From positions 105,783-164,325 of the forward strand of contig JBBHKE010002830.1 of assembly GCA_037447655.1 (NCBI GenBank): 58,543 nucleotides of DNA, given 5' to 3'. The notes beneath the pieces were generated by a model. It saw nothing but the letters and a program-made list of their open reading frames with translations, was not told the DNA's origin and ran no database searches. Numbering within the stretch: position 1 is the first letter of the stretch; every line of letters begins with the position of its first letter. This DNA is from Zygnema cylindricum. Lineage: Eukaryota > Streptophyta > Zygnematophyceae > Zygnematales > Zygnemataceae. Positions 2,076-53,909 of this stretch are shown here, in pieces. The position numbers and the translations under genes are program-made.

Positions 2076-2078
2076 TTC

Positions 2079-4015: not shown

Positions 4016-4029
4016 CTGAGGACTTTCAG

Positions 4030-14640: not shown

Positions 14641-15674
14641 TCTAGAAACAAAAGGTTATTTTTAGTATTTTTTAGGTCAAAAAAGGCAAAAAAGAAGACG
14701 AGGTAGTCTGCCTCTAACACCTCTCTTCAGCTCCCACACTTGTCGCAGTCACTGAAGGTTGAAGAGGAATCTAGAACCATGGCTGCATATGCTGTTTAAA
14801 GATAGAGAGACAGGTGGTAGATTTACCAAAATATACTTGACGGATCCAGGATTTGATCTTAGTACCCACCGTACGTCAAGTCAAAAATAGATGGTAGATT
14901 TATCCTACAATCTACGATCGGTAGTGAGATATATAGGGTTTGATAGATAATTAAATCTGTACGACTACATGAAATCATTTAACGGCGCAAACGAGCATGT
15001 AACATAGATACAGTAAAGACGTATGTACGGTGTATGGTTCTTCCCGAAATAAGTATCGTGCATTTGTTTCGACAACAAAACAATTACCGCGCATTGATTT
15101 TCGACGGCTAAAATCAAATGTCGTTCTTAATTCGACGGCCACGATAGGCAGCGGGATCGCGAAATAGGCGTTTTGGCGTTTTCGGTCAGCGCCACGTCAA
15201 GCACCACGTGTCACGACGTCATAGGTTTAAGGCGCCCCTGGAAAATATGAGAGCTAATCTGGATATGGCAAAGATCAACATTTCGGCCATGCCGTACGAT
15301 GACTATACATAAAGTACATCGGCACCTAAATTTTTCTATACGACACATTAATCTTATTAGTGCCGTACTCTAGTAGTATTAGGTTGAAAGAGGGATTTAG
15401 GACTCACAAATTTTGGTAGGCAGACACTCTCTCTTAGAGAGCTCTTGTACAAATGGTCAAAATGGTCAACTTTGACCCTTTATAACTTACTGCTCACGGG
15501 AGCAAATTTAGTGATTCTTTTTGCTATCGACTCAGGGGAGTCTTGCCTTCATAGAGGTGAAGGTGATCAAAGTTTTTGTTTGCCACGGTGGCCGTTATTC
15601 TTGCTGAAACATAAAGGGGTTAGGATTATCCTAGAGGCTTCGTGTGAGCTGCCTACTTTGAGGACGTGTGGAGG
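14641..15674 (+). repeat. Element B 5' LTR, main part
   Basis: It begins TCTAGAAACA (the 3' copy has TGTAGAAATT) and runs to GGAGG, where copia-1 is inserted; its last 14 bases are at 22123-22136. It carries the U3 hairpin, the antisense tRNA-like unit (14828-14935), CACGTG at 15205, GACGTC at 15215 and twin AGGG-type hairpins near 15488-15545. Confidence 0.85.
14828..14935 (-). promoter_or_regulatory. Antisense tRNA-like Pol III unit in the B 5' LTR
   Basis: Read on the minus strand: an A-box-like region, a B-box-like AGATCAAATCC (top strand 14849-14859), and a 7-bp closing stem CTTGACG/CGTCAAG (14874-14880 with 14836-14842). A TTTT terminator (14828-14831) follows 4 bases beyond. A box, B box and a T run are the standard parts of a type 2 RNA polymerase III promoter. 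It is not an intact tRNA. Confidence 0.55.
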
Positions 15675-15754
15675 TCTAGAAACTAATGGTTTTATTAGTA
15701 TTTTCTAGGTCTGAAAAGAAATATAGAAGTCGAGGCAGTCTATCTCTAACTTCT

Positions 15755-15799
15755 CTCTCCAACTCTCAAACTTGTCGCAGTCACTGAGAAATTGGAGAG
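15755..15799 (+). promoter_or_regulatory. Conserved U3 hairpin of the copia LTRs
   Basis: CTCTCCAA (15755-15762) pairs with TTGGAGAG (15792-15799) around a loop holding ACTTGTCGCAGTCACTGA. In other families the loop core is retained while both stem arms change together; LTR K, for example, has CCGGTC with GACCGG. CCATGG follows within about 15 bases in nearly all copies. Confidence 0.65.
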
Positions 15800-15873
15800 G
15801 AAGCTAGAGCCATGGCTACCTTGGCTATCCTGAGGTTTACGGGAATTTTATATTAGGGTTTATATATTTAATT

Positions 15874-15976
15874 AAAATGTATGTGCCGGCGGCAGGATTT
15901 GATCCTTGTACCTGCCGGCCGGCAGATACAATGTAGCCGGTAGCCTTAGCCGTTTCATCTAGCGGTAGTGTTACCT
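15874..15976 (-). promoter_or_regulatory. Antisense tRNA-like Pol III unit, copia-1 5' LTR
   Basis: On the minus strand: a tRNA-like 5' region, a B-box-like GGATCAAATCC, a closing stem made of GCCGGC-GGCAGG with CCTGCC-GGCCGGC (instead of the CTTGACG/CGTCAAG of other families), and TTTT (15874-15877). The same unit lies at 21274-21376 in the 3' LTR. Confidence 0.5.
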
Positions 15977-16339
15977 AGCATATAGTTTGATAATTATTTA
16001 TATATGTATACAAGCGATAAACCATTTAACTAGAATTAATTACGGGATACATAGATCCAGTAATATGTAATGTACGACTTACGGTACGGACATAAATCAG
16101 TACCGCGCATTTGTTTCGTAAATGAAACAAATACCGCGCATGTATTTATTACGGCTACGATTAAAGCCGAATTTAATCGGACGGCCGGGATTAGCGCCGA
16201 GATCGCGGAGGAAGATTTCGGCGGTTTGTGGCCATCGCCACATCGGATGACGCGTGGCAAAATTCCGTTGGATTGTGGAAACTCCGGAGATTATGGCACC
16301 GAATCCGGATTTGACATGTGTCGACATTTTGGCCATGTC

Positions 16340-16414
16340 GTACAATATCCGTACATAAAGTACACCGGCAGCTGTACTTTTGCGTACGGAACTCAATTCT
16401 GATTGGTTCCGTAC
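16340..16414 (+). promoter_or_regulatory. GTAC cluster upstream of the copia-1 core promoter
   Basis: Six GTAC tetranucleotides start at 16340, 16351, 16360, 16374, 16384 and 16411, against about 0.3 expected. ATTGG (inverted CCAAT) lies just before the last. GTAC is the core bound by plant SBP-box factors, including the copper regulator SPL7. A comparable cluster is present in all copia LTR families here. Confidence 0.55.
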
Positions 16415-16526
16415 ATCAGTAGATAGAGTCTGTGAGAGAGATAGGACTTAGAAAAATTAGAAGATAGGACCCTCTCTCCCAGAGAGCTTCTGTACAAAAG
16501 GTCAACTTTGACCCTCCATAACTTAC

Positions 16527-16578
16527 TGCTCAGGGGAGCAAATTCAGAGATTCTTTTTGCTATCGACTCAGGGGAGTC
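16527..16578 (+). promoter_or_regulatory. Twin AGGG-loop hairpins in the transcribed leader
   Basis: Two short hairpins with the same loop: TGCTC-AGGG-GAGCA (16527-16540) and GACTC-AGGG-GAGTC (16565-16578). They lie about 35-90 bases after the TATA-type position, so they should be in the 5' leader of the RNA. They could serve packaging or dimerisation. Confidence 0.55.
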
Positions 16579-16703
16579 TTGTCTTCACAGGGGTGAAGTT
16601 GGTCAGAGTTTTTGTCTGCCAGGGTGGAAGTTATTTTTGCTTAAACACAAAGGGGTCAGGATTATCCTAGAGGCTTCTTGGAAGCTGTCCACTCTGAGGA
16701 CTT

Positions 16704-19700
16704 ATGGAGGTCTCAGAGTTTCAGGTTATGGGCCCACCCTCTAGGGTGCCAATATTTAATGGAACTGGCTTCATATACTGGGAAAGTATGATGATAGGAG
16801 CTCTATGCGAAAAAAGGTTTTGGGGGATAGTGAGTGGACGATTGGGGCGTCCATCAAGTCTTGGAATTCCTCCAGGGTTTAAAGGAAGCAGATTCACCAG
16901 GAAAGAGGATTCACCTTCAACGGAGGAAACAAAGGAAGGAGAGGTGGTGGACAAAGGAAAGGAGAAGGAGGCGACCACACCAATAGCAACTGGTTTAGCA
17001 TTCATGTCACCTATTCCGAGGAACGAGGAGAATGATACTGAAACCTGGGACTTCAACAATATGGCGGCAAAGCACTTCATCCTACGCCATCTCACTCAAG
17101 GACTTGCATGTCCTCATTTGCAGGTAGAGAGGGCATCCGATCTTTGGATGGCTCTCATAGAGATGTACCGAAGTGGTACGATTCAGCAACAACAGTTGGC
17201 TGATCAGAAAGTTAAGGAGTATGTATACAAAGGGGGAAATATGTTGGATTTTTGCAATGAGCTTGCTACACTCTTCATGGAGCTAGAGAGTGCGGGTAAA
17301 GTTTTTAGTGAAAAAGAAAAAGTTAACTGTTTACTAATGAAGTTACCTGATGAGTTCGAGAACATAGTCAACCGTGTGCAGGACTTGCCGGACTCAAGGT
17401 GGATATGGAACTCAGTGGTAGGGATGATTCTCGTTCGAGAGAATACGATTGAGATCCGAAGGGGAGGAAAGAGTGGCCAAGCCTTGGCAACAGCGACCGA
17501 TTGGAGGAACAAGGATTCCCGGAAACCAGTCAGAAACTATGGGGGTAGGGAGCGGGAAAAACAGGTTGGCGAGTTCGAACCAAGGGCTCCCAAAGGTTTA
17601 TGTCATTTTTGTAAGAAACCTGGGCACTATATGGCAGAGTGCACCAAGCTAACCGAGCTTCGGTTAAAGGAGGGGCAGACCGGTGGTACCCCGAGAGGAA
17701 AGAAAAAGGCCCTTGTCACACAGGTACTTGAGGCGGAATCCGAGGACGAGGACGATGAGCTCCTTTTGGATGAGGAGTTGGAGGCGAAAACTGAGGTTGA
17801 AATTCCACGAAGGCAGAAATGTGCTTACGGTGGATTGAAAGGTGAAGCAGGCTGGATTATAGATTCAGGTGCCTCAATGCACATGTGTAAGGATAGACAC
17901 CTGTTCACTAAGATAAGAAAGATTCCCACCGTAGAGATAGAGTACGGGGATGGGAGGATAGTCACCACTACTCTTGTAGGATCGGTAGATCTGAAAGTGT
18001 TAGTTGAAGGAAAGACATCCATATTAACATTCTCCGATGTATTGTTTATTCCGGAGCTGAACAAAAACCTTATCTCTACATCAGTATTAGATGATAAGGG
18101 TTTTTTCACTAGCACTAGGGAAGGAGTCTTTACTGCTAGTTTTGAGGAGGATGTCTATTTCATTGCTGAGAAAGGTAGCCATGGGATGTTTAGGCTGATC
18201 TTAAGTAATGAAACGAAGAAACTTTATTATGCTGGTGTTCATGATATTATGATGTGGCATAAGAGGCTTGGGCATGTGAATCTAGATAAGTTAAGAGAGA
18301 TGAAAAAGATGGGAGTGGTGGAAGGGATTCAGTTCAGTGAGAGTGATGATATAAGTGATTGTAGTGGGTGTGCTCAAGGTAAAGCACACAGATTACCCTT
18401 TCCAAAAACAGCCACCTACAAGGGAGAAAAACTTCTAGATCTAGTACACACAGATATTTGGGGACCGGCTAGAGTGCCCTCACCGGGGGGGAAGAGATTT
18501 ATGATGACTATAACTGATGATTGGTCTCGGTATTCCCGAGTATATTTTTTGAAAAACAAGTCAGAAGCTGAGGACTGTTTTAGACAATATAAAGCATGGA
18601 GCGAAAAACTCCATGAAACTCCAATCAAGAGAGTAAGGAGTGACAATGGTGGAGAGTATACTTCTAACCAGTTTGAGGATTTTTTGAGGGAAGATGGGGT
18701 TCAACACCAAAAGACAGTGCCAGAAAATCCTGAACAGAATGGGGTAGCTGAAAGGTTAAATAGAACACTAAGTGATAGTGCTAGAAGTATGTTGTCGGAT
18801 AAGAAGATAGGAAAAAGGTTTTGGGCAGAAGCAATGAACTGTGCTAATTACCTCAAAAATAGAGTTCTTACTTCAGCTATAAAAGATCAAACACCTTATG
18901 AGAGATGGACAGGCCGGAAACCAGACTTATCTCATTTAAAGGTTTTCGGCAGTCAAGTATTCAGTCTAGATACTGATCGGTCCAATTGGAAGCTAGATCC
19001 TAAAGGAAAACCGGGATACTTATTAGGATATGATGAGGATGTTAAAGGATATAGAGTTTATGATCTAAAAAGAGAAGATATAATCTTAGTAAAGCATCTA
19101 GTAGTTATGGATGAAGGAAAGTCTGTGGATCCCTTCAAATATACAAAGTCAGTAAAAATCAGATTTGAGTCAGAAAATTCTGATGACTTTGAGCTTCCTA
19201 ACTATCCAGGTTTTAGAGACGATGACATTCTTGCAGGAACAAATCAGACAGAAAAGGACTCGGCTGTGGAAACTCCAGTGACAACTCTACTCGAAGCGGA
19301 AGACGTTTTGGAAAATGATTCGGAATCAAGGGATAGGGGAGAAGCCGAGTTTGTTCGAAAGAATCCACGAGAACCATCTATTCCGGCCTCAGATTTTGAG
19401 GGAGGGAGGAGAAGTAGCAAAAGACTGCAAGAAAAACAGGTTAATAACAAGGTAACTAAACTATCTCATCAAGATGAACCTCAAACTTATCGAGAGGCGA
19501 TGACTTGTCCAGAAAGAAACCGGTGGAAGACAGCCATCAATGAGGAGATGGCTTCAATCATGGCAGCCGATACTTGGGAGCTGGTGGACTGTCCACCTAA
19601 CCGAAAACCAATCGGTTGTAAGTGGGTTTTCAAACTGAAACTGAACCCAGATAACACAATCGAGCGCTACAAGGCCAGATTAGTGGCAAAGGGATTTACA

Positions 19701-19778
19701 CAAAAGGAAGGAATTGACTACGAGGAAACCTTTGCTCGGTGGTCAGATTTCCCTCCGTCCGCATACTTCTCAGTTTAG
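16704..19778 (+). CDS. Copia-1 Gag-Pol polyprotein, N-terminal 1024 residues (Gag, protease, integrase, start of RT)
   Basis: The first ATG lies in the last 20 bases of the 5' LTR. The frame reads through the LTR end and the primer site (a second ATG at 16728 gives MGPPSRVP). Domains: copia-type Gag (about 10-260), one CCHC knuckle (CHFCKKPGHYMAEC, 300-313), aspartic protease (DSGA from 387), integrase zinc region (H519, H524, C553, C556) and DDE core (D584, D647, E683 with 35-residue spacing), then the start of reverse transcriptase (WKTAINEEM, CKWVFKLK, about 935-985). All catalytic residues seen are intact. The frame fails at TFARWSD, where relatives have TFAHVVRF: one base is missing near 19737. 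Protease and integrase before reverse transcriptase defines Ty1/copia. Confidence 0.95.
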   Translation: MEVSEFQVMGPPSRVPIFNGTGFIYWESMMIGALCEKRFWGIVSGRLGRPSSLGIPPGFKGSRFTRKEDSPSTEETKEGEVVDKGKEKEATTPIATGLAFMSPIPRNEENDTETWDFNNMAAKHFILRHLTQGLACPHLQVERASDLWMALIEMYRSGTIQQQQLADQKVKEYVYKGGNMLDFCNELATLFMELESAGKVFSEKEKVNCLLMKLPDEFENIVNRVQDLPDSRWIWNSVVGMILVRENTIEIRRGGKSGQALATATDWRNKDSRKPVRNYGGREREKQVGEFEPRAPKGLCHFCKKPGHYMAECTKLTELRLKEGQTGGTPRGKKKALVTQVLEAESEDEDDELLLDEELEAKTEVEIPRRQKCAYGGLKGEAGWIIDSGASMHMCKDRHLFTKIRKIPTVEIEYGDGRIVTTTLVGSVDLKVLVEGKTSILTFSDVLFIPELNKNLISTSVLDDKGFFTSTREGVFTASFEEDVYFIAEKGSHGMFRLILSNETKKLYYAGVHDIMMWHKRLGHVNLDKLREMKKMGVVEGIQFSESDDISDCSGCAQGKAHRLPFPKTATYKGEKLLDLVHTDIWGPARVPSPGGKRFMMTITDDWSRYSRVYFLKNKSEAEDCFRQYKAWSEKLHETPIKRVRSDNGGEYTSNQFEDFLREDGVQHQKTVPENPEQNGVAERLNRTLSDSARSMLSDKKIGKRFWAEAMNCANYLKNRVLTSAIKDQTPYERWTGRKPDLSHLKVFGSQVFSLDTDRSNWKLDPKGKPGYLLGYDEDVKGYRVYDLKREDIILVKHLVVMDEGKSVDPFKYTKSVKIRFESENSDDFELPNYPGFRDDDILAGTNQTEKDSAVETPVTTLLEAEDVLENDSESRDRGEAEFVRKNPREPSIPASDFEGGRRSSKRLQEKQVNNKVTKLSHQDEPQTYREAMTCPERNRWKTAINEEMASIMAADTWELVDCPPNRKPIGCKWVFKLKLNPDNTIERYKARLVAKGFTQKEGIDYEETFARWSDFPPSAYFSV
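16724..16738 (+). promoter_or_regulatory. Primer-binding site complementary to the initiator-Met tRNA anticodon arm
   Basis: GGTTATGGGCCCACC directly follows the LTR end TTTCA. It is the exact complement of GGTGGGCCCATAACC, the anticodon arm of plant initiator tRNA as I know it; the animal form would mismatch near the end. Drosophila copia and yeast Ty5 use such internal half-tRNA primers. The ATG inside the site pairs with the CAU anticodon and is also an in-frame gag codon. Confidence 0.85.
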
Positions 19779-21061
19779 CAGCGGCGGAAGACATGGAAGT
19801 GCACCAGATGGACATCAAAACAGCCTTTTTGCATGGAGAATTAGAAGAGGAGATCTTCATGCGACAACCCGAAGGGTTTGTGGAAGAAGGAGAGGAGAGT
19901 AAGGTATGCCGGCTGATTAAATCTCTTTATGGTTTGAAACAGGCGCCCCGACAGTGGAATAAGAAGCTTGATGATTTTCCTACCGGTCTAGGATATATTC
20001 GGATCAGCTCAGATCACTCAATCTATGTTTTCGAAGATGAGGAAGGTTTTATATTTATTGCAATTTATGTTGATGATTTGCTTGTTTTAAGTAAATCAAT
20101 GGAAAAAATTAATAAACTGAAAACCGATCTTAAGGGGAGATTTGAAATGAAGGATATGGGGGAAGCAAAATATATTTTGGGAATTCAAGTAGAGAGAGAC
20201 CGAAAAAGAAAAATTATAAGATTGACTCAAAAGGAAGCAATAGGAAACATGCTTGAAAAATTTCAAATGGATAAAGCTAATAGTTGCACAACTCCAATGG
20301 AATTGAAGAAGGGAAGTGAGGGGAGTGAGGAAGAAGGAGTCATAGTCTTAGACGAGGAATTATCTCCTGAAGAACAGAAGTTCATGCAGACTATTCCTTA
20401 CAGGCAAGTAGTGGGAAGTCTAATCTATTTTATGAATTGTACCCGGCCGGATTTAGCTGCAGCTGTAGGAGTGCTGAGTAGAAGTCTAAATGCTCCCACT
20501 AAGAAGGATTGGGAGGCAGCTAAGAGAGTCCTTAGATACTTGGTAGGAACTAGAGATCTATGGTTGCATTTGGGTGGGGAGAATACTGACATCACTACTT
20601 GGAGTGATGCCAGTTATGGTGATGCTCCGATGAGGAGATGTACTTCTGGATATGTATTATATGTGGGTGATGGGGCTTGCTGTTGGAGTAGCAAACAGCA
20701 AAAGGTTATTGCTCAGTCCACCATGGAGGCTGAGTATATGGCCTCTTGCTCTGCTGTAAAAGAATTGATGTGGGTCAAGTCTTTGCTTGGTGAGCTTGGT
20801 CACCTTAAGAGTGGTGTGCAGAAAATATTTTGTGATAATCAGGCAGCAATCGCTATTTCTGCCAATCCTAAACACCATTTTAAGGCCAAACACATGGACA
20901 TCAGACTCAGCTTTGTTAGAGAGAAAGTAGAAAACAAAATAATCAGTTTAGAGTACAGACCAGATAGTGAGATGGTAGCAGATATGATGACCAAACCTGT
21001 GCCTTCCCCTAAGCTATTTTTTTGCAGGGAGAAGTGTGGTCTGAAATTAAAGATTGACTAG
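19739..21061 (+). CDS. Copia-1 Pol C-terminal part (reverse transcriptase and RNase H)
   Basis: These 440 codons continue the polyprotein after the 1-base deletion; no independent start is expected. The reverse transcriptase has MDIKTAFLHGEL (first catalytic Asp about residue 25), SLYGLKQAPRQW and IYVDDLL (YVDD 110-113). RNase H follows, with WSDASYGD, CCWSSKQQKVIAQSTMEAEYMA and CDNQAAIAI; ADMMTKPVPSPK closes the protein. All expected motifs are present. Copia-1 would need only one base change to be a full polyprotein, so it must have been active recently. Confidence 0.94.
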   Translation: MVRFPSVRILLSLAAAEDMEVHQMDIKTAFLHGELEEEIFMRQPEGFVEEGEESKVCRLIKSLYGLKQAPRQWNKKLDDFPTGLGYIRISSDHSIYVFEDEEGFIFIAIYVDDLLVLSKSMEKINKLKTDLKGRFEMKDMGEAKYILGIQVERDRKRKIIRLTQKEAIGNMLEKFQMDKANSCTTPMELKKGSEGSEEEGVIVLDEELSPEEQKFMQTIPYRQVVGSLIYFMNCTRPDLAAAVGVLSRSLNAPTKKDWEAAKRVLRYLVGTRDLWLHLGGENTDITTWSDASYGDAPMRRCTSGYVLYVGDGACCWSSKQQKVIAQSTMEAEYMASCSAVKELMWVKSLLGELGHLKSGVQKIFCDNQAAIAISANPKHHFKAKHMDIRLSFVREKVENKIISLEYRPDSEMVADMMTKPVPSPKLFFCREKCGLKLKID

Positions 21062-21108
21062 AAAATAAGGGGAGTGTAGAAACTAATGGTTTTATTAGTA
21101 TTTTCTAG
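21058..21108 (+). promoter_or_regulatory. Polypurine tract within an inverted repeat at the 3' LTR junction
   Basis: AATAAGGGGAG lies just before the LTR start TGTAGAAAC (21075). CTAGAAAATA (21058-21067) and TATTTTCTAG (21099-21108) form a perfect 10-bp inverted repeat around it. The pair recurs in B, J and the D and F families. Confidence 0.75.
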
Positions 21109-22122
21109 GTCTGAAAAGAAATATAGAAGTCGAGGCAGTCTATCTCTAACTTCTCTCTCCAACTCTCAAACTTGTCGCAGTCACTGAGAAATTGGAGAGG
21201 AAGCTAGAGCCATGGCTACCTTGGCTATCCTGAGGTTTACGGGAATTTTATATTAGGGTTTATATATTTAATTAAAATGTATGTGCCGGCGGCAGGATTT
21301 GATCCTTGTACCTGCCGGCCGGCAGATACAATGTAGCCGGTAGCCTTAGCCGTTTCATCTAGCGGTAGTGTTACCTAGCATATAGTTTGATAATTATTTA
21401 TATATGTATACAAGCGATAAACCATTTAACTAGAATTAATTACGGGATACATAGATCCAGTAATATGTAATGTACGACTTACGGTACGGACATAAATCAG
21501 TACCGCGCATTTGTTTCGTAAATGAAACAAATACCGCGCATGTATTTATTACGGCTACGATTAAAGCCGAATTTAATCGGACGGCCGGGATTAGCGCCGA
21601 GATCGCGGAGGAAGATTTCGGCGGTTTGTGGCCATCGCCACATCGGATGACGCGTGGCAAAATTCCGTTGGATTGTGGAAACTCCGGAGATTATGGCATC
21701 GAATCCGGATTTGACATGTGTCGACATTTTGGCCATGTCGTACAATATCCGTACATAAAGTACACCGGCAGCTGTACTTTTCCGTACGGAACTCAATTCT
21801 GATTGGTTCCGTACATCAGTAGATAGAGTCTGTGAGAGAGATAGGACTTAGAAAAATTAGAAGATAGGACCCTCTCTCCCAGAGAGCTTCTGTACAAAAG
21901 GTCAACTTTGACCCTCCATAACTTACTGCTCAGGGGAGCAAATTCAGAGATTCTTTTTGCTATCGACTCAGGGGAGTCTTGTCTTCACAGGGGTGAAGTT
22001 GGTCAGAGTTTTTGTCTGCCGGGTGGCAGTTATTTTTGCTTAAACACAAAGGGGTCAGGATTATCCTAGAGGCTTCTTGGAAGCTGTCCACTCTGAGGAC
22101 TTATGGAGGTCTCAAAGTTTCA
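21075..22122 (+). repeat. Copia-1 3' LTR
   Basis: It has the full TGTAGAAAC start and TTTCA end, 1048 bases. It differs from the 5' copy at about six sites, among them 21704/16304, 21782/16382 and a 1-base length change near 22020. It is followed directly by the 14-base tail of the B 5' LTR and the B primer site. Confidence 0.95.
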
Positions 22123-22151
22123 GTCTTAGAGTTGCAAGTTATGGGCCAACC
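22123..22151 (+). promoter_or_regulatory. Element B LTR tail and primer-binding site
   Basis: GTCTTAGAGTTGCA (22123-22136) completes the B 5' LTR cut by copia-1. AGTTATGGGCCAACC (22137-22151) is the B copy of the half-tRNA primer site, with two changes from copia-1. Confidence 0.75.
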
Positions 22152-23227
22152 CTCTAGGGTATCCAAATTTAATTCAGAAGGCTTCATATATTAGGAAAGT
22201 ATGATGATAGTGGCTCTATAAGAAAAGAGGTTTTGGGGGATAGTAAGCGGACGAGTGAGGCGTCTATTCAGTTCAGCCATTCCTCCAAGGTTTGGGGGAG
22301 GCAAGTTTACTAGAAAAGCAGATCGAATTCCACCGAAGGATTCGGAGGACGGGGAGAGCATTGTGCTGGAAAAAGGGAAAGATAAGAAGACAGTAACACC
22401 GATAGTAACACCTATCGCAACCTGTTCAGCATTCATGTCACCTATTCCGAGAAATGAGGAGAATTATGTTGATACTTGGGACCACAACAATATGGCGGCA
22501 AAACACTTCATTCTCTGCCATCTCACTCAAGGACTTGCATCTCGAAATTTGCAAGTGGAAAGGAAATCTGATCTGTGGATTGCCCTCATACAGATGTACC
22601 GGAGTGGTACAATTGAGCAGCAGCAATTGGATGATCAAAAGATAGATACATATGTATACAAAAGGGGAAAAATGCTAGACTTTTGTAATGAGATTGCAAC
22701 CCTTTTAATGGAACTAGAGAGTGTTAGAGAAGTAAAAATAGAAAAGATAAAGGTTAACTGTCTGCTCATGAAGTTACCTAATGATTATGAAAACATAGTC
22801 AACCGTGTGTAAGATTTGTCGGATTGACTATGAAAACATAGTCAACCGTGTGCAAGATTTGCCAGATTCCACGTGGATCTGGAATTCTGTGGTAGGGATG
22901 ATTCTCGTCCGAGAGAATACAATTGAGATCCGACGGGGAGTTAAGAGTGGACAAGCTTTGGCAACATGAACTGATTGGAGGAGCAAGGACCCTAGAAAAT
23001 TTGTAGGGAACTATGGAAGAGTAGGATAGAAAACTCAGTCTGACGAATCAAGACCGAGGGTCTCTAAGGGGTTGTGTCACTTTTGCAAGAAACAAGGACA
23101 CTATATGGCAGAGTGTACTAAGTTAACCGTGCTTCGGTTAAATGAAGGGCAGACCAGTGGACCTCCGAGAGCAAAGAAAAAGGCCCTTGTGACACATGTA
23201 CATGAGGCAGAATCCGAGAACGAGGAC
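22152..23227 (+). pseudogene. Element B gag, broken
   Basis: It aligns with copia-1 Gag throughout: FGGGKFTRKADR, PIPRNEENYVDTWDHNNMAAKHFI and MYRSGTIEQQQLDDQKI in the open frame 22255-22812, then the knuckle CHFCKKQGHYMAEC near 23077. Defects: a TAG in the first codons (FIY*ES), a 43-bp tandem duplication (22786-22871) that shifts the frame and adds a stop, a TGA after ALAT, and further stops. It breaks off at AGGAC (23223-23227), where element H is inserted. Confidence 0.88.
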
Positions 23228-24115
23228 TGAAATTCTGTGGTCTCCATTGACACACAGAATGAGCTGCCTATGTAAAGCCTCTAGGATAACATTTGCCCCT
23301 TCTACTTTCCCGCTGAATAAGCGCCGCCCAGGCACACAAATATTCTGAGCACTCTCACCCCTGTGAGGATAAGACTCCCCTAAGTCAAACGCAAAAAGAA
23401 TCACTGAATTTGCTCACCTGAGCAGTAAGTTATGGCTGGTCAAAGATGACCTTTATAGTTACAAGCTCTCTTAAAGAGAGAGGTACCTAAATATTACTAA
23501 GTCTCGGTCTGCCTACTCACGACTACCTACTATTAAACCCTAGTCCAATAGGAACACTATAAAGTACAAGAAAGTACAATGGGCGATGTACTTATTGTAC
23601 GACCATTGTACGACAAGGTCTACAAGGTGACACCTATCATATCGGAAGCCATGGTTCCTCCTCCCATCTTCTCCGGTATCAAATAATGTGGCGCCACGTG
23701 GCACCGCGTGACGCTATATCCGTATGCCACCAAAAAGCTCACTTCGCGTGGCGGCTATAATGCCGGCCGTTCGATCAAAACATATTTTACACGGTTCAGA
23801 TTTGCGTACATGCAGAAATTGCTCTTTTTGGTTAGTCTGCTGTTAATTAGCTGTTTCGTTAATATTTATATGTTTATGAAACCCGTCGTGTATCGTTTTG
23901 TAACGTCTTAATGGTTAAGGCGTTAGGCTATAGAGAATCTAGAGGTCACAGGTTCAAATCTAGACATAGACATTATTTTAGTAAAATACCCTTAACTGCA
24001 AAAACTGCCACTTTTTAAATATGGCGGCAGCCATGGCGCGCCTTTGATCCTTACTCTCTTTCTTTAAAACAAAACTAAAATAGGGAAGTGAACTATTAAT
24101 TACTTCTTTTCAACA
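23228..24115 (-). repeat. Element H 3' LTR
   Basis: It runs from TGAAATTCTG to TTTTCAACA. The family differs from copia-1: 150 bases shorter and without the AGTCACT hairpin loop. It shares the twin hairpins (TGCTC and GACTC types), the GTAC cluster (about 23560-23615), CACGTG and the antisense tRNA-like unit. Confidence 0.92.
23907..23979 (+). promoter_or_regulatory. tRNA-like Pol III unit antisense to element H (3' LTR copy)
   Basis: TTAATGGTTAAGGCG (about 23908-23922) is A-box-like. GGTTCAAATCT (23951-23961) is one or two changes from the B-box consensus GGTTCGANTCC. TTTT follows at 23976-23979. Box spacing is near that of tRNA genes. The other copy is at 29229-29301. It is not an intact tRNA: the acceptor stem is poor. 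Confidence 0.6.
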
Positions 24116-28532: not shown

Positions 28533-28547
28533 GGTGGGCCCATAACC
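28533..28547 (-). promoter_or_regulatory. Element H half-tRNA primer-binding site
   Basis: The minus strand reads GGTTATGGGCCCACC, identical to the copia-1 site, next to the 5' LTR. Confidence 0.85.
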
Positions 28548-29437
28548 TAAAATTCTCTGGTCTCCATTGACCCACAGAATGAGCAGCCTATGTAAAGCCT
28601 CTAGGATAATATTTGCCCCTCCTACTTTCCCGCTGAATAAGCGCCGCCCAGGCACACAAATATTCTGACCACTCTCACCCCTGTGAGGACAAGACTCCCC
28701 TGAGTCAAACGCAAAAAGAATCACTGAATTTGCTCACCTGAGCAGTAAGTTATGGCTGGTCAAAGATGACCTTTATAGTTACAAGCTCTTTTAGAGAGAG
28801 AGGTACTTAAATATTACTAAGTCTCGGTCTGCCTACTCACGACTACCTACTATTAAACCCTAGTCCAATAGGAACACTATAAAGTACAAGAAATTACAAT
28901 GGGCGATGTACTTATTGTACGACCATTGTACGACAAGGTCTACAAGGTGACACCTATCATATCGGAAGCCATGGTTCCTCCTCCCATCTTCTCCGGTATC
29001 AAATAATGTGGCGCCACGTGGCACCGCGTGACGCTATCTCCGTATGCCGCCAAAATGTTCACTTCGCGTGGCGGCTATAATGCCGGCCGTTCGATCAAAA
29101 CATATTTTACACGGTTTAGATTTGCGTACATGCAGAAATTGCTCTTTTTGGTTAGTCTGCTGTTAATTAGCTGTTTCGTTAATGTTTATATATTTAGGAA
29201 ACCCGTCACATGTTTCTTTTCGTTACGACTTAATGGTTAAGGCGTTAGGCTATAGTGAATCTAGAGGTCACAGGTTCAAATCTAGACCTAGACATCATTT
29301 TAGTAAAATACCCTTAGCTGCAAAAACTGCCACTTTCTAAATATGGCGGCAGCCATGGCGCGCCTTTGATCCTTACTCACTTTCTTTAAAACAAAAATAA
29401 AATAGGGAAGTGAACTATTAATTACCTCTTTTCAACA
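28548..29437 (-). repeat. Element H 5' LTR
   Basis: It pairs with 23228-24115. It ends at TTCAACA just before the AGGAC duplication. The antisense tRNA-like unit is at 29229-29301: A box about 29230-29244, B box 29273-29283, TTTT 29298-29301. Confidence 0.92.
29229..29301 (+). promoter_or_regulatory. tRNA-like Pol III unit antisense to element H (5' LTR copy)
   Basis: Same parts as 23907-23979. The boxes are unchanged although the bases just upstream (29195-29230) differ a good deal between the two LTRs, which may hint at constraint. Confidence 0.6.
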
Positions 29438-29925: not shown

Positions 29926-30924
29926 TGTTGAAATTAAATGTTTTCTTATGTATTTTCTGGGTTTCTTAATTGATCTAAAATGAGGAGGAAAAAGCAAAGG
30001 CAGCCTGCTTCTAACATCTTCTCTGGCCCCATACTTACCGTAGTCATTGAAGATTGGAGAGGAAGTAAGAACTATGGCTGCCTATGCTTCTCTTAGAGTC
30101 ATAAGGCAGCTATTTTTGGTAAACTTACCAAAAATGGTTGACAAACCCAGGATTTGAACCTGGTGCCTATCGTCCCTCTAAGTAGCCTAGTATCATTACC
30201 ATTTAGCCTAGCACCAGTGTTGAAATATATAGGGTACATTAGTTATTTAACAACATGGAAATACAGAAGTTCATTTAACTGACGAACGAACCACAATCAC
30301 AAAAAGATAGTTAGATAGAGTTACGTCGGAAATACTACTTGTATTTTCGACGGCCTTGAATTATAGGCGATATCAATCGGATGGCAGAGGAAGAAGTCGG
30401 CATTGCGGAATGGATGATTTGGCGGTTTGCGGTCACAGCCACACCAGGTGACACCTAGCAATATGACATTGGATAGCGGCATCTTCGAGACATACCATGG
30501 CGAACACCGATATGGCACGCATCCTCTTCTCAACCATGTTGTACAATAGCCGTACAGAAAGAACTCTGAACCAAGAACCTTTCTGTATTGTATAGTGATT
30601 AAATTGGGTCCGTACTTTGGCAGTAAGGGATCAAAGAGGGGTTTAGGACTTGGGAGAATTAGAAGTAGCCGCCTCTCTCCCAGAGCACTCCTATATAAAA
30701 GGTCATCTATGACCATTGATTATATACTGCTCAGGGGAGCAAATTCAAGGATTCTTTTTGTAGTGGACTCAAGGGAGTCTGCTCTTCCAAGGGTTATAGT
30801 CGAATCAGTCTGTATTCTATTAAGGTGTCAGTAATACTCATACAAAGACTAAGGGATAAAGGCTATCCTAGGGGCTTCTACTAAGCTGCCTACTCTGAGC
30901 ACCAATGGAGGTCTCAGAGTTGCA
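29926..30924 (+). repeat. Element C 5' LTR
   Basis: It starts TGTTGAAATT and ends GAGTTGCA, 999 bases, with a TATA box TATATAAAA at 30692-30700, twin hairpins (CTGCTC-AGGG-GAGCA and GACTC-AAGG-GAGTC) and the best antisense tRNA-like unit of the window. It is inserted in the B pol region. The C 3' end is lost, so no duplication can be tested. Confidence 0.85.
30130..30212 (-). promoter_or_regulatory. Antisense tRNA-like Pol III unit in the element C LTR (best copy)
   Basis: On the minus strand: A box TAGGCTAAATGG (top 30199-30210), 38 bases, then B box GGTTCAAATCC (top 30150-30160) in a perfect T-arm CCAGG-TTCAAAT-CCTGG, then TTTTT (30130-30134) directly after CAACCA. The A/B spacing and terminator distance fit a tRNA-type Pol III gene. 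A 5' acceptor strand is not evident. Confidence 0.65.
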
Positions 30925-33890: not shown

Positions 33891-33963
33891 AGACTGGTTA
33901 GAGCTAACGGCTACGCCGCGCTCTGCCGATCAGAGGTTCAAGTCCTGTCGAACTTGACCTTTT
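33891..33963 (+). promoter_or_regulatory. tRNA-like Pol III unit antisense to D1
   Basis: A box GACTGGTTAGAGC, middle arm, B box GGTTCAAGTCC (33935-33945) and TTTT (33960-33963). Of all copies its D-arm and T-arm text looks most like a real tRNA gene, but no 7-bp acceptor stem closes it. Confidence 0.58.
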
Positions 33964-34401: not shown

Positions 34402-35415
34402 TGCAATTCTGTGTCCTCCATTGGACTACAGAATACAGGAAGCCTCTACATTGTATTTAACTAACCCACTTTAAGGCACAACCACTGCTGCCCAAGAAGG
34501 CGAACTGACAATTTGACTGCACCCCTATGCAGCCTGGACTCCCCTGAGTCCGTAGCAAAAAGAATCACTGAAAACGGCCAACCAGCCGATAAGTTATGAG
34601 GCACCAAAAATGCCAATTTGTACAAACTCTCAAGGGGGAGAGGTGACAACCTACCAAAATTTTCTAAGTCCTGATTCCTTCTAATAACTTTTATCTACTG
34701 AAGTACGGACCAATCAAATTACTGTATCGTACCAAAAAGTACTACTGCCGGTGTACCTTTTGTACGGCCTATGTACGACAAGGCTATTAAGTGGACGCGT
34801 GTCTGCTTTTTATTTGTCTGTACATTCATCGGAATTCCTATGACCGAATGTCATCTCTCCACGTGGCTCCAGGTCATGCCACGTCACAAAACGCCAAGGT
34901 GACCACTCCGGGATTTCGGCGATGACGTGCGCCGTCCGATTCGTAATGAGACGTAATCTTAACCGTTATAATTACTTGCGAGATATTTGTTTCGCTGTCA
35001 ACCAAATGCGAGGTATTCATTCTGAAATGATGTCGTACTAAAACTGTGTCTATGCACGCCGTATCTAGTTTTAGTTAAATGGATTTCTTACTTCCTAAAT
35101 GTATATATATCTATCATACTCTATAGCACTTAGCATTGGTCCTAGTCTAGTAGGATAAAGCTGATCGCTATCAGCCAACTTGACGAACCGCAGGTTCTGG
35201 GTTCAAATCTTGGGTTCGTCAAGACAAGTGTTGGGTATCAAGGACCTTTTGCCGATATTCGATATATATATATCGAATTTCAGGTACCCGATAATCGATA
35301 TATCGCTTTGATATATCGAAAACCAAATCATCGCGATATATCGCCGATATATTGCCGATATATCGTATCGACAATATATCGAAAATGAAAATTTAAGAAA
35401 GTTTATTTAACCCCC

Positions 35416-35459
<44 letters not shown>

Positions 35460-35870
35460 ATCCGTACGATTTTCTGTAAATTCCGCGTACGCTTTTTGTA
35501 CGGTTTTCTGTACTCTGACTGTACGGACACGCAATTTTTGCGATATATATCGCGATAATAATTTATGTTGGTCCCGGTACGATATATCGAGGAATCTGCT
35601 CGATCGATATTCGATATATCGAATATCGAAATTATCGCGATATGAAACTACCCGATACCCAAGACTAGTCAAGACTATTTTTAGTAACCTTCTAAAAATA
35701 ATTGCCTGTTGAACTAAGGCGGCCATGGATCAAACACCTTCTCTATCCTTTAGTGACTACAACAAGTATGGGGGCTAGAGAAAGGAGGTGGAGGCAGATT
35801 GTCTGTCCTTTTTCTTTTTCCTAACATATTTAAACCTAGAAAATACTATATAAATCTATGAATTTCAACA
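34402..35870 (-). repeat. D2 3' LTR, interrupted by a hAT-like miniature element
   Basis: It runs from TGCAATTCTG to ATTTCAACA. Without the 442-bp insert and its 8-bp duplication it is about 1019 bases and matches 44979-45992 at about 97 percent by eye. The antisense tRNA-like unit has its B box at 35200-35210. Confidence 0.88.
35226..35667. mobile_element. hAT-like miniature inverted-repeat element
   Basis: Flanked by a perfect 8-bp duplication GTCAAGAC (35218-35225 and 35668-35675), the hAT hallmark. The D2 5' LTR has the uninterrupted site. The termini AAGTGTTGGGTATC and TAGTCTTGGGTATC agree at 12 of 14 positions. The body is packed with nested palindromes such as TCGATATATCGA and holds a 36-base poly-G run (35418-35453). 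No coding capacity. Confidence 0.85.
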
Positions 35871-40286: not shown

Positions 40287-41470
40287 TGAAAGTCTGAGAC
40301 CTCCATTGGTCCTCAAAGTAGGCAGCTCTCAAGAAGCTTATCTGTTAGTGCCGACTCCAAGTTGATACAAACCCAAATGATTGACCCCTTGATAATCACA
40401 ACCCTAATACAACTTCACCCCTATGAAATAAGACTTTATGTGTGCTCAGTTCCACCACAGAATGCAAAGTTAGAATATGAGTTTTGGACACATTTACCCA
40501 CTTTGACTTTCCCTTAGTAATGCAGCCACCGTGGCACGAACGACTCTGTGTAGCGTGGAATCCCCTGAGTCCGCAGCAAAAAGATTCACTGAATTTGGTC
40601 AACCGAGTGAATTTTAATTAAATGGAAAAGTTTGCCTATTTATATAGATGCTCTCTGGGAGAGAAGCGAGTACCTACCAAAAAATTCTAAGTCATATTTC
40701 CTCTCTAAAACCCCATCTACTGAATTACGGTCCAATCATGGGACTGTACCGTACAAAAAGTACAAGTACCGGAGTACTTTGTGTATGGTAACGGTACTAC
40801 CTGGCCAAAACAATGACATTTGTCACATTCATATTTGTTGTCTTGCTCTCCGAAGATTCCGAAAACCCGTACGATGCTGCCACGTGTTATCTGGAGTGGC
40901 GACTTCCGGAAAACGACAAAATGCCCTTTCCGTGATATCGGCTCCTTTCACGGCCGTTCGATGAAGTTCGGATTGAATATTTGCCGATGAAATAAATGTT
41001 CGTAGCATTTATTTCATGCGGTACTATAGTACAAAACTTATTCTATGTTATACCGTACTATTCATTAGTTAAAGGAAATATCATATTTGTAAACGTTTAT
41101 AAAACTATCAAACCCTATATATTTCATCAGTAGTCTAAGACTTAAAAGAAAAAGCTAACGACAGATGGGTTTGTCAAACTGTAGGTACCAAGATCAAGTC
41201 CTGGGTCTTTACCAGACTCCTTTTTGGTAAATCTACTAGTTTCTACCGTTGTCTCTCTAGAAGACCTGGGTCCGTCAGACTCCTTTTTGGTAAATCTACC
41301 AGTTTCTACCCTTGTCTCTCTAGAAGACATACGCAGCCATGACTCTAACTCCCTATCCAAGCCTCCAGTGACTACAACAAGTGTGGGGGCTTGGAGAAAG
41401 GAGTTAGAGGTAGATCGCCTATTCTTTTTTCTATTCTAAAACAGACCTAGAAAATACACAAATATCAACA
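40287..41470 (-). repeat. F1 5' LTR (f1)
   Basis: It runs from TGAAAGTCTG to AATATCAACA, 1184 bases, clearly related to the F2 LTRs (GTTCCACCACAGAATGCAAAG shared in pieces). Its antisense tRNA-like block (about 41130-41225) is followed by a 63-bp tandem duplication (41214-41339) that doubles the CTTTTT terminator-like run. Its right edge cuts the D2 reverse transcriptase at ACCTATTGC. Confidence 0.85.
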
Positions 41471-44978: not shown

Positions 44979-45992
44979 TGCAATTTTGTGTCCTCCATTG
45001 GACTACAGAATACAGTAAGCCTCTAGATAGTATTTAACTAACCCACTTTAAGCCACGACCAATGCTGCCCAAGAAGGCAAACTGACAATTTGACTGCACC
45101 CTTATGCACCCTGGACTCCTGTGAGTCCGTAGCAAAAAGAATCACTGAAAACGGCCAACCAGCCGATAAGTTATGTGGCACCAAAAATGCGAATTTGTAC
45201 AAACTCTCAAGGGGGAGAGGTGACTACCTACCAAAATTTTCTAAGTCCTGATTCCTTCTAATAACTTCTATCTACTGAAGTACGGACCAATCAAATTACT
45301 GTAGCGTACCAAAAAGTACTACTGCTGGTGTACCTTTTGTACGGCCTATGTACGGCTATTAAGTGGACGCGTGTCTGCTTTTTATTTGTCCGTACATTCC
45401 TCGGAATTCCTATGACCGAATGTCATCTCTCCATGTGGCTCCACGTCATGCCACGTCACAAAACGCCAAGGTGACCACTCCGGGATTTTGGCGATGACGT
45501 GCGCAGTCGGATTCGTAATGAGACGTAATCTTAACCGTTATAATTACTTGCGAGATATTTGTTTCGCTGTCAACCAAATGCGAGGTATTCATTCTGAAAT
45601 GATGTCATACTAAAACTGTATCTATGCACGCCGTATCTAGTTTTATTTAAATGGATTTTTTACTTCTTAAATGTATATATATCTATCATACTCTATAGCA
45701 CTTAGCATTGGTCCTAGTCTAGTCGGATAAAGCTGACCGCTATCGGCCAACTTGACGAACCGCAGGTTCCGGGTTCAAATCCTGGGTCCGTCAAGAGTAT
45801 TTTTAGTAACCTTCTAAAAATAACTGCCTGTTGAACTAAGGCAGCCATGGATCAACCACCTTCTCTATCCTTCAGTGACTACAACAAGTATGGGGGCTAG
45901 AGAAAAGAGGTGGAGGCAGATTGTCTGTTCTTTTTCTTTTTCCTAACTTATTTGAACCTAGAATATACTATAGAAATCTATGAATTTCAACA
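44979..45992 (-). repeat. D2 5' LTR (d3)
   Basis: It runs from TGCAATTTTG to TTTCAACA, 1014 bases. The uninterrupted hAT target GTCAAGAG is at 45790-45797. The GTAC cluster lies at about 45305-45355 and the TTTGTTTCG dyad near 45550-45600. Confidence 0.92.
45712..45804 (+). promoter_or_regulatory. tRNA-like Pol III unit antisense to D2 (uninterrupted copy)
   Basis: A-box-like TAGTCTAGTCGG (about 45714-45725), B box GGTTCAAATCC (45772-45782) in a good T-arm (CCGGG-TTCAAAT-CCTGG), a 7-bp closing stem CTTGACG/CGTCAAG (45751-45757 with 45789-45795), then TTTTT (45800-45804). The hAT-like element in the sister LTR landed between the closing stem and this T run. Confidence 0.65.
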
Positions 45993-48025: not shown

Positions 48026-49197
48026 TGAAACTATGTGTGTACCATTGCCCACAGAAATCACAGATCCAAAAGAAGCTTATCTAGATAGTGCCGACTCCAA
48101 GTTGATATAAACCCAAATGACTGACCCTTTGACAATTAAAAACCCATTATAACTTCACCCCTGTGAAATAAGACTTTCTGTGTGCTTAGTTCCACCACAG
48201 AATGCAAAGTTAGAATATGAGTTTTGGACACATTCACCCACTTTGACTTTCCTTTAGAAATTCAGCCACCCTGGCAGGGAAAAACTCTGACCGAATACAC
48301 ATCTGTGTAGCCTAGACTCTCGTGGGTTTGCAGCAAAAAGAATCACTGAAAATGGTCAAGTAAATTGATAGTTATGGCTGGCCAAAGTTTGCCATTTATA
48401 CAAGATGCTCTCTGGGAGAGGCAGCTACCTACCCAAAATTTTCTAAGTCCTATTCCCCCTCTAAAAATCTATCTACTGAAGTACGGCACGAATCAAATTA
48501 TTGTGTCCTACATAAAAGTACAGGTGCCGGTGTACTTTATGTACGGCCATTGTACAACATGGTCAAAATGATGACACGTGTCAAATCAGGATTTGTTCCC
48601 GTAATCTCCAAAGTTCCCATAATCCAATGTTATTACGTCACGTGTCATCTGACGTGGCAAAAACCCTAAAACGCCAAAAGTACCTCTTCCGTGATCGCGG
48701 CGCCTATCGCGGTCGCCCGATCAAAACCGGCTATAATCCTAGCAGCTGAAATCTGACGCGCGGTATTTATTTCGCTATCGAAACAAATGCGCGGTATCCG
48801 TTCCGTCCCCATACCGTACTCCGTACTAAATCAAACAGTATCTATGCACTAGTTTATATTCTCTGTTAAACAAATTAATCTACGTGTAACAATTTATATA
48901 TTTATCAAACACTATATATCGTAATATTATTCTTAGACTTAACGGTTAGAGCTAACGGCTACGGTAACTTGACAGACGACAGGTACCAGGATCAATTCAT
49001 GTGTCCGTCAAGTACTTTTTGGTAAATCTACCTAATCCACCCCTTGTCTTCTCTAGTGAGCTTAGGGTGCCATGGCTCTATCTCCCTATCAAGCCTTTAG
49101 TGACTACAACAAGTGTGGGGGCTTCGAGAAGGGAGTTACGAACAGACTGCCTTTGCTCATTTTCTATAAAGCCCTAGAAAGTACTCAAATATCAACA
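48026..49197 (-). repeat. F2 3' LTR (f2)
   Basis: It runs from TGAAACTATG to ATATCAACA. It is nearly identical to f3 over its last 990 bases, but about 14 differences fall in the first 180 (the U5 end in element sense). The tRNA-like block lies at 48938-49020 with A box TAACGGTTAGAGC, a weak B box and TTTTT (49016-49020). Confidence 0.92.
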
Positions 49198-51147: not shown

Positions 51148-52319
51148 AGGAACTTTGTGTGCTCCATTGCCCACAGAAATCGCAGATCCAAAAAAAGCTT
51201 ATCTAGATAGTGCTGACTCCAAGTTGATATTAACCCAAATGCCTGACCCCTTGATAATCACAAACCCATTATAGCTTCACCCATGTGAAGTAAGCCTTTC
51301 TGTGTGCTTAGTTCCACCACAGAATGCAAAGTTAGAATATGAGTTTTGGACACATTCACCCACTTTGACTTTCCTTTAGAAATTCAGCCACCCTGGCAGG
51401 GAAAAACTCTGACCGAATACACATCTGTGTAGCCTAGACTCTCGTGGGTCTGCAGCAAAAAGAATCACTGAAAATGGTCAAGTAAATTGATAGTTATGGT
51501 TGGCCAAAGTTTGCCATTTATACAAGATGCTCTCTGGGAGAGGCAGCTACCTACCCAAAATTTTCTAAGTCCTATTCCCCCTCTAAAAATCTATCTACTG
51601 AAGTACGGCACGAATCAAATTATTGTGTCCTACATAAAAGTACAGGTGCCGGTGTACTTTATGTACGGCCATTGTACAACATGGTCAAAATGATGACACG
51701 TGTCAAATCAGGATTTGTTCCCGTAATCTCCAAAGTTCCCATAATCCAATGTTATTACGTCACGTGTCATCTGACGTGGCAAAAACCCTAAAACGCCAAA
51801 AGTACCTCTTCCGTGATCGCGGCGCCTATCGCGGTCGCCCGATCAAAACCGGCTATAATCCTAGCAGCTGAAATCTCACGCGCGGTATTTATTTCGCTAT
51901 CGAAACAAATGCGCGGTATCCGTTCCGTCCCCATACCGTACTCCGTACTAAATCAAACAGTATCTATGCACTAGTTTATATTCTCTGTTAAACAAATTAA
52001 TCTACGTGTAACAATTTATATATTTATCAAACACTATATATCGTAATATTATTCTTAGACTTAACGGTTAGAGCTAACGGCTACGGTAACTTGACAGACG
52101 ACAGGTACCAGGATCAATTCATGTGTCCGTCAAGTACTTTTTGGTAAATCTACCTAATCCACCCCTTGTCTTCTCTAGTGAGCTTAGGGTGCCATGGCTC
52201 TATCTCCCTATCAAGCCTTTAGTGACTACAAGAAGTGTAGGGGCTTGGAGAAGGGAGTTAGGGACCGACTGCCTTTGCTCATTTTCTATAAAGCCCAAGA
52301 AAATACTCAAATATCAACA
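51148..52319 (-). repeat. F2 5' LTR (f3)
   Basis: It pairs with f2, same length of 1172. The tRNA-like block is at about 52060-52142 with TTTTT at 52138-52142. The dyad and G-box/ACGTCA region (GTCACGTGTCATCTGACG) lies near 51758-51777. Confidence 0.92.
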
Positions 52320-52860: not shown

Positions 52861-53909
52861 TGTAGAAATTAATGGTTATTTTTAGTATTTTCTAGGTCTA
52901 AAAAGGCAGAAAAAAAAGTTGAGGCGGTCTGCCTCTTACTCCTGTCTTCAGCTCCCACACTTGTCGCAATCACTGAAGGTTGAAGGGGGAGCTAGAGCCA
53001 TGGCTGCCTATACTGTTTACAGATAGAGAGACAGGTGGTAGATTTTGGTACATTTACCAAAATATACTTCACCGATCTAGGATTTGATCTTGGTACATGT
53101 CGTCCGTCAAGTCTGATATAGATGGTAACTTTATCCTATAGTCTACGATCGGTGGTGAGATATATAGGGTTTGATAGATAATTAAATCTGTACGACTACA
53201 TGAAATCATTTAACGGTGCAAACGAACATGTAACATAGACATAGATAAGACGTATATACGGCATACGGTACTTCCTGAAATAATTACCGTGCATTTGTTT
53301 CGACTACAAAACATATACCGCGCATTGATTATAGACAGCTAAAATCGAATGTCGGTCTTAATCGGACGGCCACGATAGGCGTCGAGATCGCGGAATAGGC
53401 GTTTTGGCTTTTTTCGGCCAGCGCCATGTCAAGCGCCACGTGGAACAACGTCATTGGTTTAAGGCTTCCCTGGAAAATATGGGAGCTAATCTGGATATGG
53501 TAGGCGTCAACATTTCGGCCATGCCATACGATTTCCGTACATCAAGTAAATCGGCACCTATACTTTTATGTAGGATATAGTAATCTTATTAGTTCCGTAC
53601 TCTAGTAGTATACGGTTTACAGAGGGATTTAGGACTTAGAAATTTTGGTAGGTAGATCCTCTCTTCAGAGAGCTCCTTTACAAAAGGTCAACTTTGACCC
53701 TTCATAACTTACTGCTCAGGGGAGCAAATTTAGTGATGTTTTTTTTCTATCGACTCAAGGAAGTCTTCCATTTACAGAGGTGAATGTGTTGAGGATTTTT
53801 GTCTGTCTGGGTGGCAGTTATTCTTGTTTAAACACAAAGGGGTTAGGATTATCTTAGAGGCTTCGTGTGAGGTGCCTACTCTGAGGACCTATGAGGTCTC
53901 AGAGTTGCA
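52861..53909 (+). repeat. Element B 3' LTR
   Basis: It starts TGTAGAAATT after AAATAAAGGGAG and ends GAGTTGCA, 1049 bases. It is about 10 percent or more diverged from the 5' copy, as expected for the oldest member of the nest. An eroded antisense tRNA-like block is at 53059-53155. Confidence 0.88.

Follow-up and report, generated by a model that had tools for sequence, protein, structure and literature searches.

LTR retrotransposons are the textbook case of transcription by Pol II, and the locus analyzed here raises the question of why the LTRs of its Copia elements should carry, on the strand opposite to the element, a block resembling the internal promoter of a tRNA gene. The window (the whole stretch of 58,543 nucleotides that was analyzed) was taken from a 352.8-Mb assembly and is packed with nested Copia elements on both strands. 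The presence of an antisense tRNA-like block in the Copia LTRs was confirmed. Judged from the alignments, the block is tRNA-like and constrained between families, and since its key letters have been kept while the surroundings changed, it probably still does something.

An antisense tRNA-like block in the U3 of Copia LTRs

The LTRs, which start with TGTTGAAAT, TGTTGATAT or TGTAGAAAT, are by themselves about 890-1170 bp long and adjoin gag-pol reading frames. For an element of family C, both ends were fixed by a 5-bp target duplication (GTCCT), the 5′ LTR (TGTTGAA...TTTCA) being located at 28548-29437 on the minus strand (ends ±2) and the 3′ LTR, ending with TTTCA, at 23228-24115. The copia-1 region at 15675-23227 showed the order LTR-internal-LTR-internal. 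When the U3 of the second copia-1 LTR was searched against the genome, 39 other scored matches, the first window LTR among them, were 99-100% identical, indicating a very recent spread; in family C, identity was 94-95% among the best matches. First-look genome counts ranged from 727 to 5335 per LTR query (overlapping and unscored), and a protein search with the reverse transcriptase (RT) gave identities of 46% or less among the best 120 of 4140 matches. The U3 regions were found to be homologous across the LTR families, which indicates that the block was inherited once and not acquired repeatedly. A Ty3-type element with several reading frames was also recognized by eye from the ORF translations at 342-5351 on the minus strand.

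Thirteen copies of the block from 8 alignable LTR families were scored in the window, other LTR pieces (e.g., near 54007) lying outside this set, and in the aligned families the block was situated 140-290 bp into U3. All 13 copies were on the strand opposite to the element and all matched GGTTCRANNCC at 7-9 of 9 positions (8-9 of 9 once position 54 may be A), bearing out the initial annotation with regard to the constant antisense strand and to a B-box-like motif common to the LTR families. The T4-T5 run was recovered in 12/13 copies, but at 14-19 bases past the B box and not at the 4-15 bases that had been proposed. The A-box-like motif could be recognized as 12-mers matching TRGYNNARNNGG at 5-8 of 8 positions; it was, however, weaker and more degenerate than the B box, and in families C and H the best-scoring 12-mer was not at the aligned place. 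Where the A motif was at the aligned place, the A-B gap was 38-48 nt. Such a gap, with a T run 14-19 nt downstream, fits yeast tRNA genes, for which the pertinent passages of PMC5356446 give an A-B gap of 31-93 nt and name tau-B on the B box as the main determinant. When the whole unit (A, B and T4) was compared with dinucleotide shuffles, families P, C, B, H and copia-1 stood out, 0-1% of shuffles reaching the median, whereas D, E and A were not above the shuffles (11%, 14.5% and 20%, respectively).

On the minus strand, the family P block (30130-30212) consists of a T5 run at 30130-30134, a B box at 30150-30160 (GGTTCAAATCC) and an A-box-like part at 30199-30210 (TAGGCTAAATGG). It had been presented as one of the best copies; its perfect B box, however, is private to it, A being found at position 54 in 27/27 other P copies compared. 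The two copia-1 LTRs carry the block on the same strand, the first at 15874-15961 (T4 15874-15877, B box 15895-15905 reading GGATCAAATCC, A-box-like part 15950-15961) and the second at 21274-21361 (T4 21274-21277, B box 21295-21305, A-box-like part 21350-21361). Family A is represented there by a block at 53059-53145 (T4 53059-53062, B box 53080-53090, A-box-like part 53135-53145) and by a second copy at 14828-14919 (T4 14828-14831, B box 14849-14859), whose best A-like 12-mer reached just 5/8.

The remaining copies lie on the plus strand. The family B block at 45715-45804, in an element on the minus strand, has an A box matching at 8/8 (45715-45726), a B box matching at 9/9 (45772-45782) and a T5 run (45800-45804). 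In family D, the first copy (48934-49020) comprises an A-box-like part at 48934-48945, a B box at 48989-48999 and a T5 run at 49016-49020, with a closing stem of the CTTGACGGAC/GTCCGTCAAG type, and the second (52056-52142) has the same parts at 52056-52067, 52111-52121 and 52138-52142. The B-box sequence earlier reported for family D needs correction, GGATCAATTCA being read in the window and GGATCAATTCC in 6/20 other copies; A was found at position 54 in 20/20 other D copies. The family H block (33891-33963) shows a D-arm-like GGTTAGAGC near 33897, a B box at 33935-33945 and a T4 run at 33960-33963, and 11/20 other H copies read exactly GGTTCGAGTCC. The family C element carries the block in its 5′ LTR at 29229-29301 (D-arm-like ATGGTTAAGGC, B box 29273-29283, T4 29298-29301) and in its 3′ LTR at 23907-23979 (B box 23951-23961, T4 23976-23979). 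The family E block was located at 41131-41225, with a weak A-box-like part, a B box at 41191-41201 (AGATCAAGTCC) and a T5 run at 41221-41225.

Copy J, a member of family B, retains the A box (35143-35154) and B box (35200-35210) of a block at 35143-35210, and its T run, the one missing among the 13 scored copies, is separated from the block by a 445-bp insertion. This insertion (35224-35668) is flanked by the 8-bp sequence GTCAAGAC on each side, ends with TTGGGTATC/GATACCCAA, contains a run of 36 G at 35418-35453 and looks like a small DNA transposon.

Conservation of the block between and within families

A genome-wide sample was collected with two flanking U3 motifs and therefore blind to the B box; 258 places were found, and none with the reversed control. 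From about 100 listed of these 258, 40 LTRs were picked by eye for diversity (80 letters shown), and they fell into 26 clusters at 80% identity. Column counts were made on 25 cluster representatives, the misaligned L194 (H type) being omitted. With A or T allowed at position 54, a B box of at least 8/9 was found in 32/40 LTRs on the antisense strand and in 0/40 on the sense strand, against 5.3% of mononucleotide shuffles; at 7/9, the figures were 39/40, 4/40 and 46%. A T4 run within 35 nt was found in 36/40 LTRs vs 26% in shuffled flanks, and in many families it sits in a longer motif, TTTTRGTAAA.

The near-invariant columns between clusters included those that define tRNA arms and Pol III boxes. 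On the D-arm side, T8 was kept in 24, G10 in 25, G18 in 24, G19 in 23 and A21 in 25 of the 25 representatives, and on the T-arm side, G53 in 23, T55 in 25, C56 in 24, A57 in 25, A58 in 24, T60 in 23 and C61 in 25. Positions 52, 59 and 62 were variable, and position 54 was restricted to A (21) or T (4). While these box positions held at 23-25/25, identity beside the block dropped to about 0.4-0.5 between clusters. Positions 11-13, 25 and 26 were also near-invariant. Across the 8 window families, conservation in U3 peaked at the B box (0.83 vs a mean of 0.53), and 0.9% of 11-nt U3 windows were as conserved. With the divergent family C removed, the U3 mean was 0.58 and the B box 0.82, and 5.2% of windows equaled it, so that in this reduced set the B box is one of several conserved motifs. 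Motifs conserved about as well in U3 are TATTTTCTAGGTCT, TTGTCGCAATCACTG, AGCCATGGCTGCC and GTTTGATAGATAATTA (sense), e.g., at 52861-53200.

The A part gave a mixed picture. Its core TNGNNNANNNG was present in 19/39 copies against 0.7% of shuffles, 20/39 being without the 4-base core, and this core (T1, G3, A7, G11) is the same as the query motif given in the relevant part of PMC11724288. Position 11 was A in 24/25 representatives, where the A box consensus wants a pyrimidine. Among the parts of a type 2 Pol III gene, the B box and the downstream oligo-T terminator were present, and the A box expected 31-93 nt upstream was found to the extent just given. A full tRNA gene with cloverleaf was ruled out by ARAGORN, which found 0 tRNA in the window, and by the Rfam tRNA model (RF00005), for which there was no match at E ≤ 1 in the window nor at E ≤ 10 in 10 loci. 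One family B copy gave a sub-threshold match to the model of the tRNA-like mascRNA (19.7 bits, E 2.9).

Variation within families was assessed by comparing 27 copies of P besides the window copy (from 40 hits), 20 each of C, B, D and H (40 scored each), 14 of A and 6 of copia-1; E was represented by a single copy. The mean minor-allele frequency of the block exceeded that of all U3 in 6/7 families sampled, namely C (0.043 vs 0.022), B (0.035 vs 0.024), D (0.062 vs 0.043), H (0.058 vs 0.047), A (0.079 vs 0.070) and copia-1 (0.009 vs 0.004), and was lower in P only (0.056 vs 0.066). For the B box alone, it was lower than in all U3 in B (0.017), A (0.058), copia-1 (0) and P (0.057), equal in D (0.043) and higher in C (0.029) and H (0.064). 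The decay at the LTR rate which the initial annotation had named as contrary evidence is therefore seen, at that rate or faster, within 6/7 families, and between families it is not; within a family, dead copies should show just such decay of the block. In copia-1, 6/6 fetched copies retained the B box and T4, and a B box of at least 8/9 was found in 20/21 copies of family C and in 16/20 of family H.

A proposed Pol III promoter and its rivals

The reading which we put first, with about even confidence, is that the block would be a type 2 Pol III promoter module of tRNA origin, which became fixed antisense in U3 in the ancestor common to this Copia lineage and has since been kept between families by selection. 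We infer its tRNA origin from the conserved tRNA positions. Binding of TFIIIC, transcription and a benefit to the element, which we also infer, would then be as follows. The block would most likely act at the DNA level, with TFIIIC recognizing the B box and the degenerate A box assisting, and Pol III would make an antisense RNA of about 90-120 nt ending at the T4-T5 run; alternatively, TFIIIC alone may mark the LTR. The element may benefit because U3 chromatin is kept open or because sense transcription is interfered with. Against a promoter as the only explanation, positions 44-51 and 63-65, which lie outside the boxes, were also conserved and mostly matched the initiator tRNA (tRNA-iMet). 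Taken with the conserved positions 11-13, 25 and 26, this makes the B box alone insufficient as an explanation.

The likeness to tRNA-iMet led to the main rival, a serious one. Host tRNA-iMet genes, which we take to be of the land-plant type, were found as 5 pattern matches. In six families, the LTR is immediately followed by GGTTATGGGCCCACC or a close variant, the reverse complement of the iMet anticodon stem-loop. One such primer binding site (PBS) lies at 16724-16738 on the plus strand; further exact copies of the core, TTATGGGCCC, were found at 30927 (plus) and at 28545, 44976 and 51145 (minus) and copies with one mismatch at 22139 (plus) and 40284 (minus), making five places exact and two with one mismatch. 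For families A and H, no PBS was located. By this complementarity to the iMet anticodon stem-loop, priming is of the half-tRNA copia/Ty5 type, known from Drosophila copia and Ty5 (PMC5371799).

In a bipartite PBS, the T-arm complement in U3, at the 3′ end of the sense genomic RNA, would pair with the T-arm and variable loop of iMet, and the anticodon stem-loop would be left to the 5′ PBS; we consider it possible, yet on balance unlikely. The antisense orientation would be obligatory here, because any RNA that is to pair with a tRNA must have the reverse-complement sequence. Besides the PBS cores of six families, which are complementary to the iMet anticodon loop, the geometry is favorable: the PBS covers iMet bases 25-39 and the match of the block starts at 43 (43-64), so that the segments tile the tRNA. 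The T-arm, which reads AGGTACCAGGATCAAATCCTGG in several clusters, agreed in its majority state with iMet at 19/22 positions over the 25 clusters. The tRNA comparison set held 33 sequences (32 of few isotypes plus iMet), with Ala added later and Ser, Leu, Val, Gly and others absent; within it, iMet was the best of the compared tRNAs in 20/25 clusters, above tRNA-Ala in 25/25, and of rank 1 of 33 in 25/27 extra P copies and 8/14 window copies. The pairing of a U3 segment with the primer tRNA also has a precedent in Ty3, as set out in the corresponding passage of PMC5371799.

Several observations do not agree with such docking. Three positions were fixed off iMet, namely 48 (A or T, 25/25), 57 (A, 25/25) and 60 (T, 23/25), of which 57 would still give a wobble pair and 60 an A.A mismatch, and T54 recurs among clusters. 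A54 was discarded as an iMet-only mark, tRNA-Ala also having A54. In families C and H, both of which have multiplied, likeness to iMet was absent (iMet at rank 17-19 and 30 of 33, respectively), yet the B box and T run were kept. Moreover, 5/25 clusters were closer to other tRNAs than to iMet, the A part was likest elongator D-arms (Arg best in 15/25, ties included) and not iMet, and a primer of the half-tRNA type would lose its T-arm. In an RNAduplex scan of whole LTRs against tRNAs, which was too noisy to decide, the best iMet window was at the block in only 5/10 LTRs, and other tRNAs reached similar energies. The fixed mismatches, together with the B box kept in C and H without iMet likeness, lead us to prefer the B-box reading over docking. 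Either reading would be compatible with a T-arm derived from the primer tRNA.

A hairpin in the 3′ region of the sense transcript, serving as a packaging, export or stability signal with the tRNA likeness being incidental, was judged improbable. A 15-pair hairpin (outer stem and T-stem) was scored in 19 sequences drawn from D, P, B, A, copia-1 and E; 85.2% of its cells were paired, and in the slid control this fraction did not exceed 56%. Five of its 15 pairs were changed on both sides (33/500 shuffles as high), its covariation was 0.143 vs 0.107 (8/500), and the imperfect T-stem cells, 14 A-C (G-U on the sense strand) and 8 G-U, leaned slightly to the sense strand. However, the alignment was made without C and H, which do not fit the fold, and for H another possible fold was noticed by eye around the same B box. 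RNAalifold returned no structure on the first window alignment, and the invariant positions are loops rather than stems. The exchange of the closing stem between families, which the initial annotation had pointed out, is real (CTTGACGGAC/GTCCGTCAAG in D, TGCCGGC/GCCGGCA in copia-1) but not general, a perfect outer stem of at least 6 bp being found in 4/25 genome-wide clusters (null 3.9%; mean longest stem 4.4 vs 2.9). RNA structure was thus rejected as the main constraint, the hairpin holding in D, P, B, A, copia-1 and E and not in general across the 25 clusters.

Little probability was likewise given to an ordinary U3 enhancer in which a Pol II transcription factor would bind the palindrome CCAGGAT-CAA-ATCCTGG. 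A frequent form is indeed a perfect 7+7 inverted repeat, and neighboring U3 motifs are conserved about equally, but in the T54 families the palindrome is broken while the B box is kept, and a palindrome would leave the T run and the tRNA-like spacing of the conserved D-arm positions unexplained. The least probable and already disfavored reading is that of a fossil without present function, left by a SINE or tRNA that inserted long ago into the ancestral LTR. This reading agrees with the unslowed decay of the block within families, but not with box positions kept in nearly all representatives amid diverged neighbors, nor with the retention of the block in recently spread families such as copia-1 and C.

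Known retroelements with related units

tRNA-like promoters in LTRs have already been published for the non-autonomous Helenus (TRIMp3; Kojima 2024, PMC10886601), whose LTR, in the sections describing it, shares with ours a tRNA-like sequence, in Helenus with A and B boxes. According to the same sections, fungal forms are thought to depend on Copia, fungal PBSs mostly match anticodon loops, and the template RNA of this short TRIM (about 0.3-1.3 kb) is proposed to be transcribed from that promoter. The LTRs of the window, in contrast, belong to large gag-pol elements and carry the unit antisense, a word which does not occur in the main text of PMC10886601; its author argues, in the passage on this point, that transcription of the autonomous partners must rely on Pol II. 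Cassandra TRIMs resemble the case proposed here in having a Pol III promoter conserved inside plant LTRs and, as far as the accounts at hand extend, differ in that the promoter is of the 5S type and the element non-autonomous.

In foamy virus, a short hairpin RNA is driven by A and B boxes in the U3 of an autonomous retroelement (PMC8674446, passages on this virus), similar to what is proposed here; it is, however, an animal virus whose miRNAs were shown by sequencing, and those passages contain neither a tRNA-like arm nor an antisense unit. In Ty3, arms of the tRNA-iMet primer are bound by U3 in the genomic RNA (PMC5371799, in the part concerned), as docking would have it here, but Ty3 primes from the intact 3′ end, whereas our elements have their PBS at the anticodon loop (copia/Ty5 type) and mismatches with iMet at key T-loop positions. 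Extra-TFIIIC (ETC) sites, described in a portion of PMC5356446, are yeast host loci occupied by TFIIIC alone; the candidate sites here were recognized by sequence and lie in LTRs. In a literature search with most subscription papers beyond reach, neither a tRNA-like nor an antisense Pol III unit came up for the LTR of an autonomous Copia element.

We put forward only tentatively that a whole autonomous Copia lineage may have kept, from a time before its families diverged, a working antisense Pol III unit in each LTR, partly derived from tRNA-iMet and possibly docking it. If so, each insertion would plant a TFIIIC/Pol III site and make a short RNA complementary to the 3′ end of the element's genomic transcript. 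With hundreds to thousands of insertions per family, a Pol III module that is kept would distribute potential TFIIIC sites throughout a plant genome, which would affect chromatin, nested insertion and small RNAs. A copia version of the Ty3 U3 primer dock would be equally informative, and the two readings predict opposite outcomes.

Two further observations were made during the RNA searches. In the B/J LTRs, sub-threshold Rfam matches to the C/D snoRNA sn2429 were obtained in the element sense at 34791-34862 (35.0 bits) and 45352-45434 (27.4 bits) on the minus strand, the gathering score being 50. A genome search with the tRNA family gave 24,620 first-look candidates, 63 of which were scored, and a large tRNA-like repeat population may be present in this genome.
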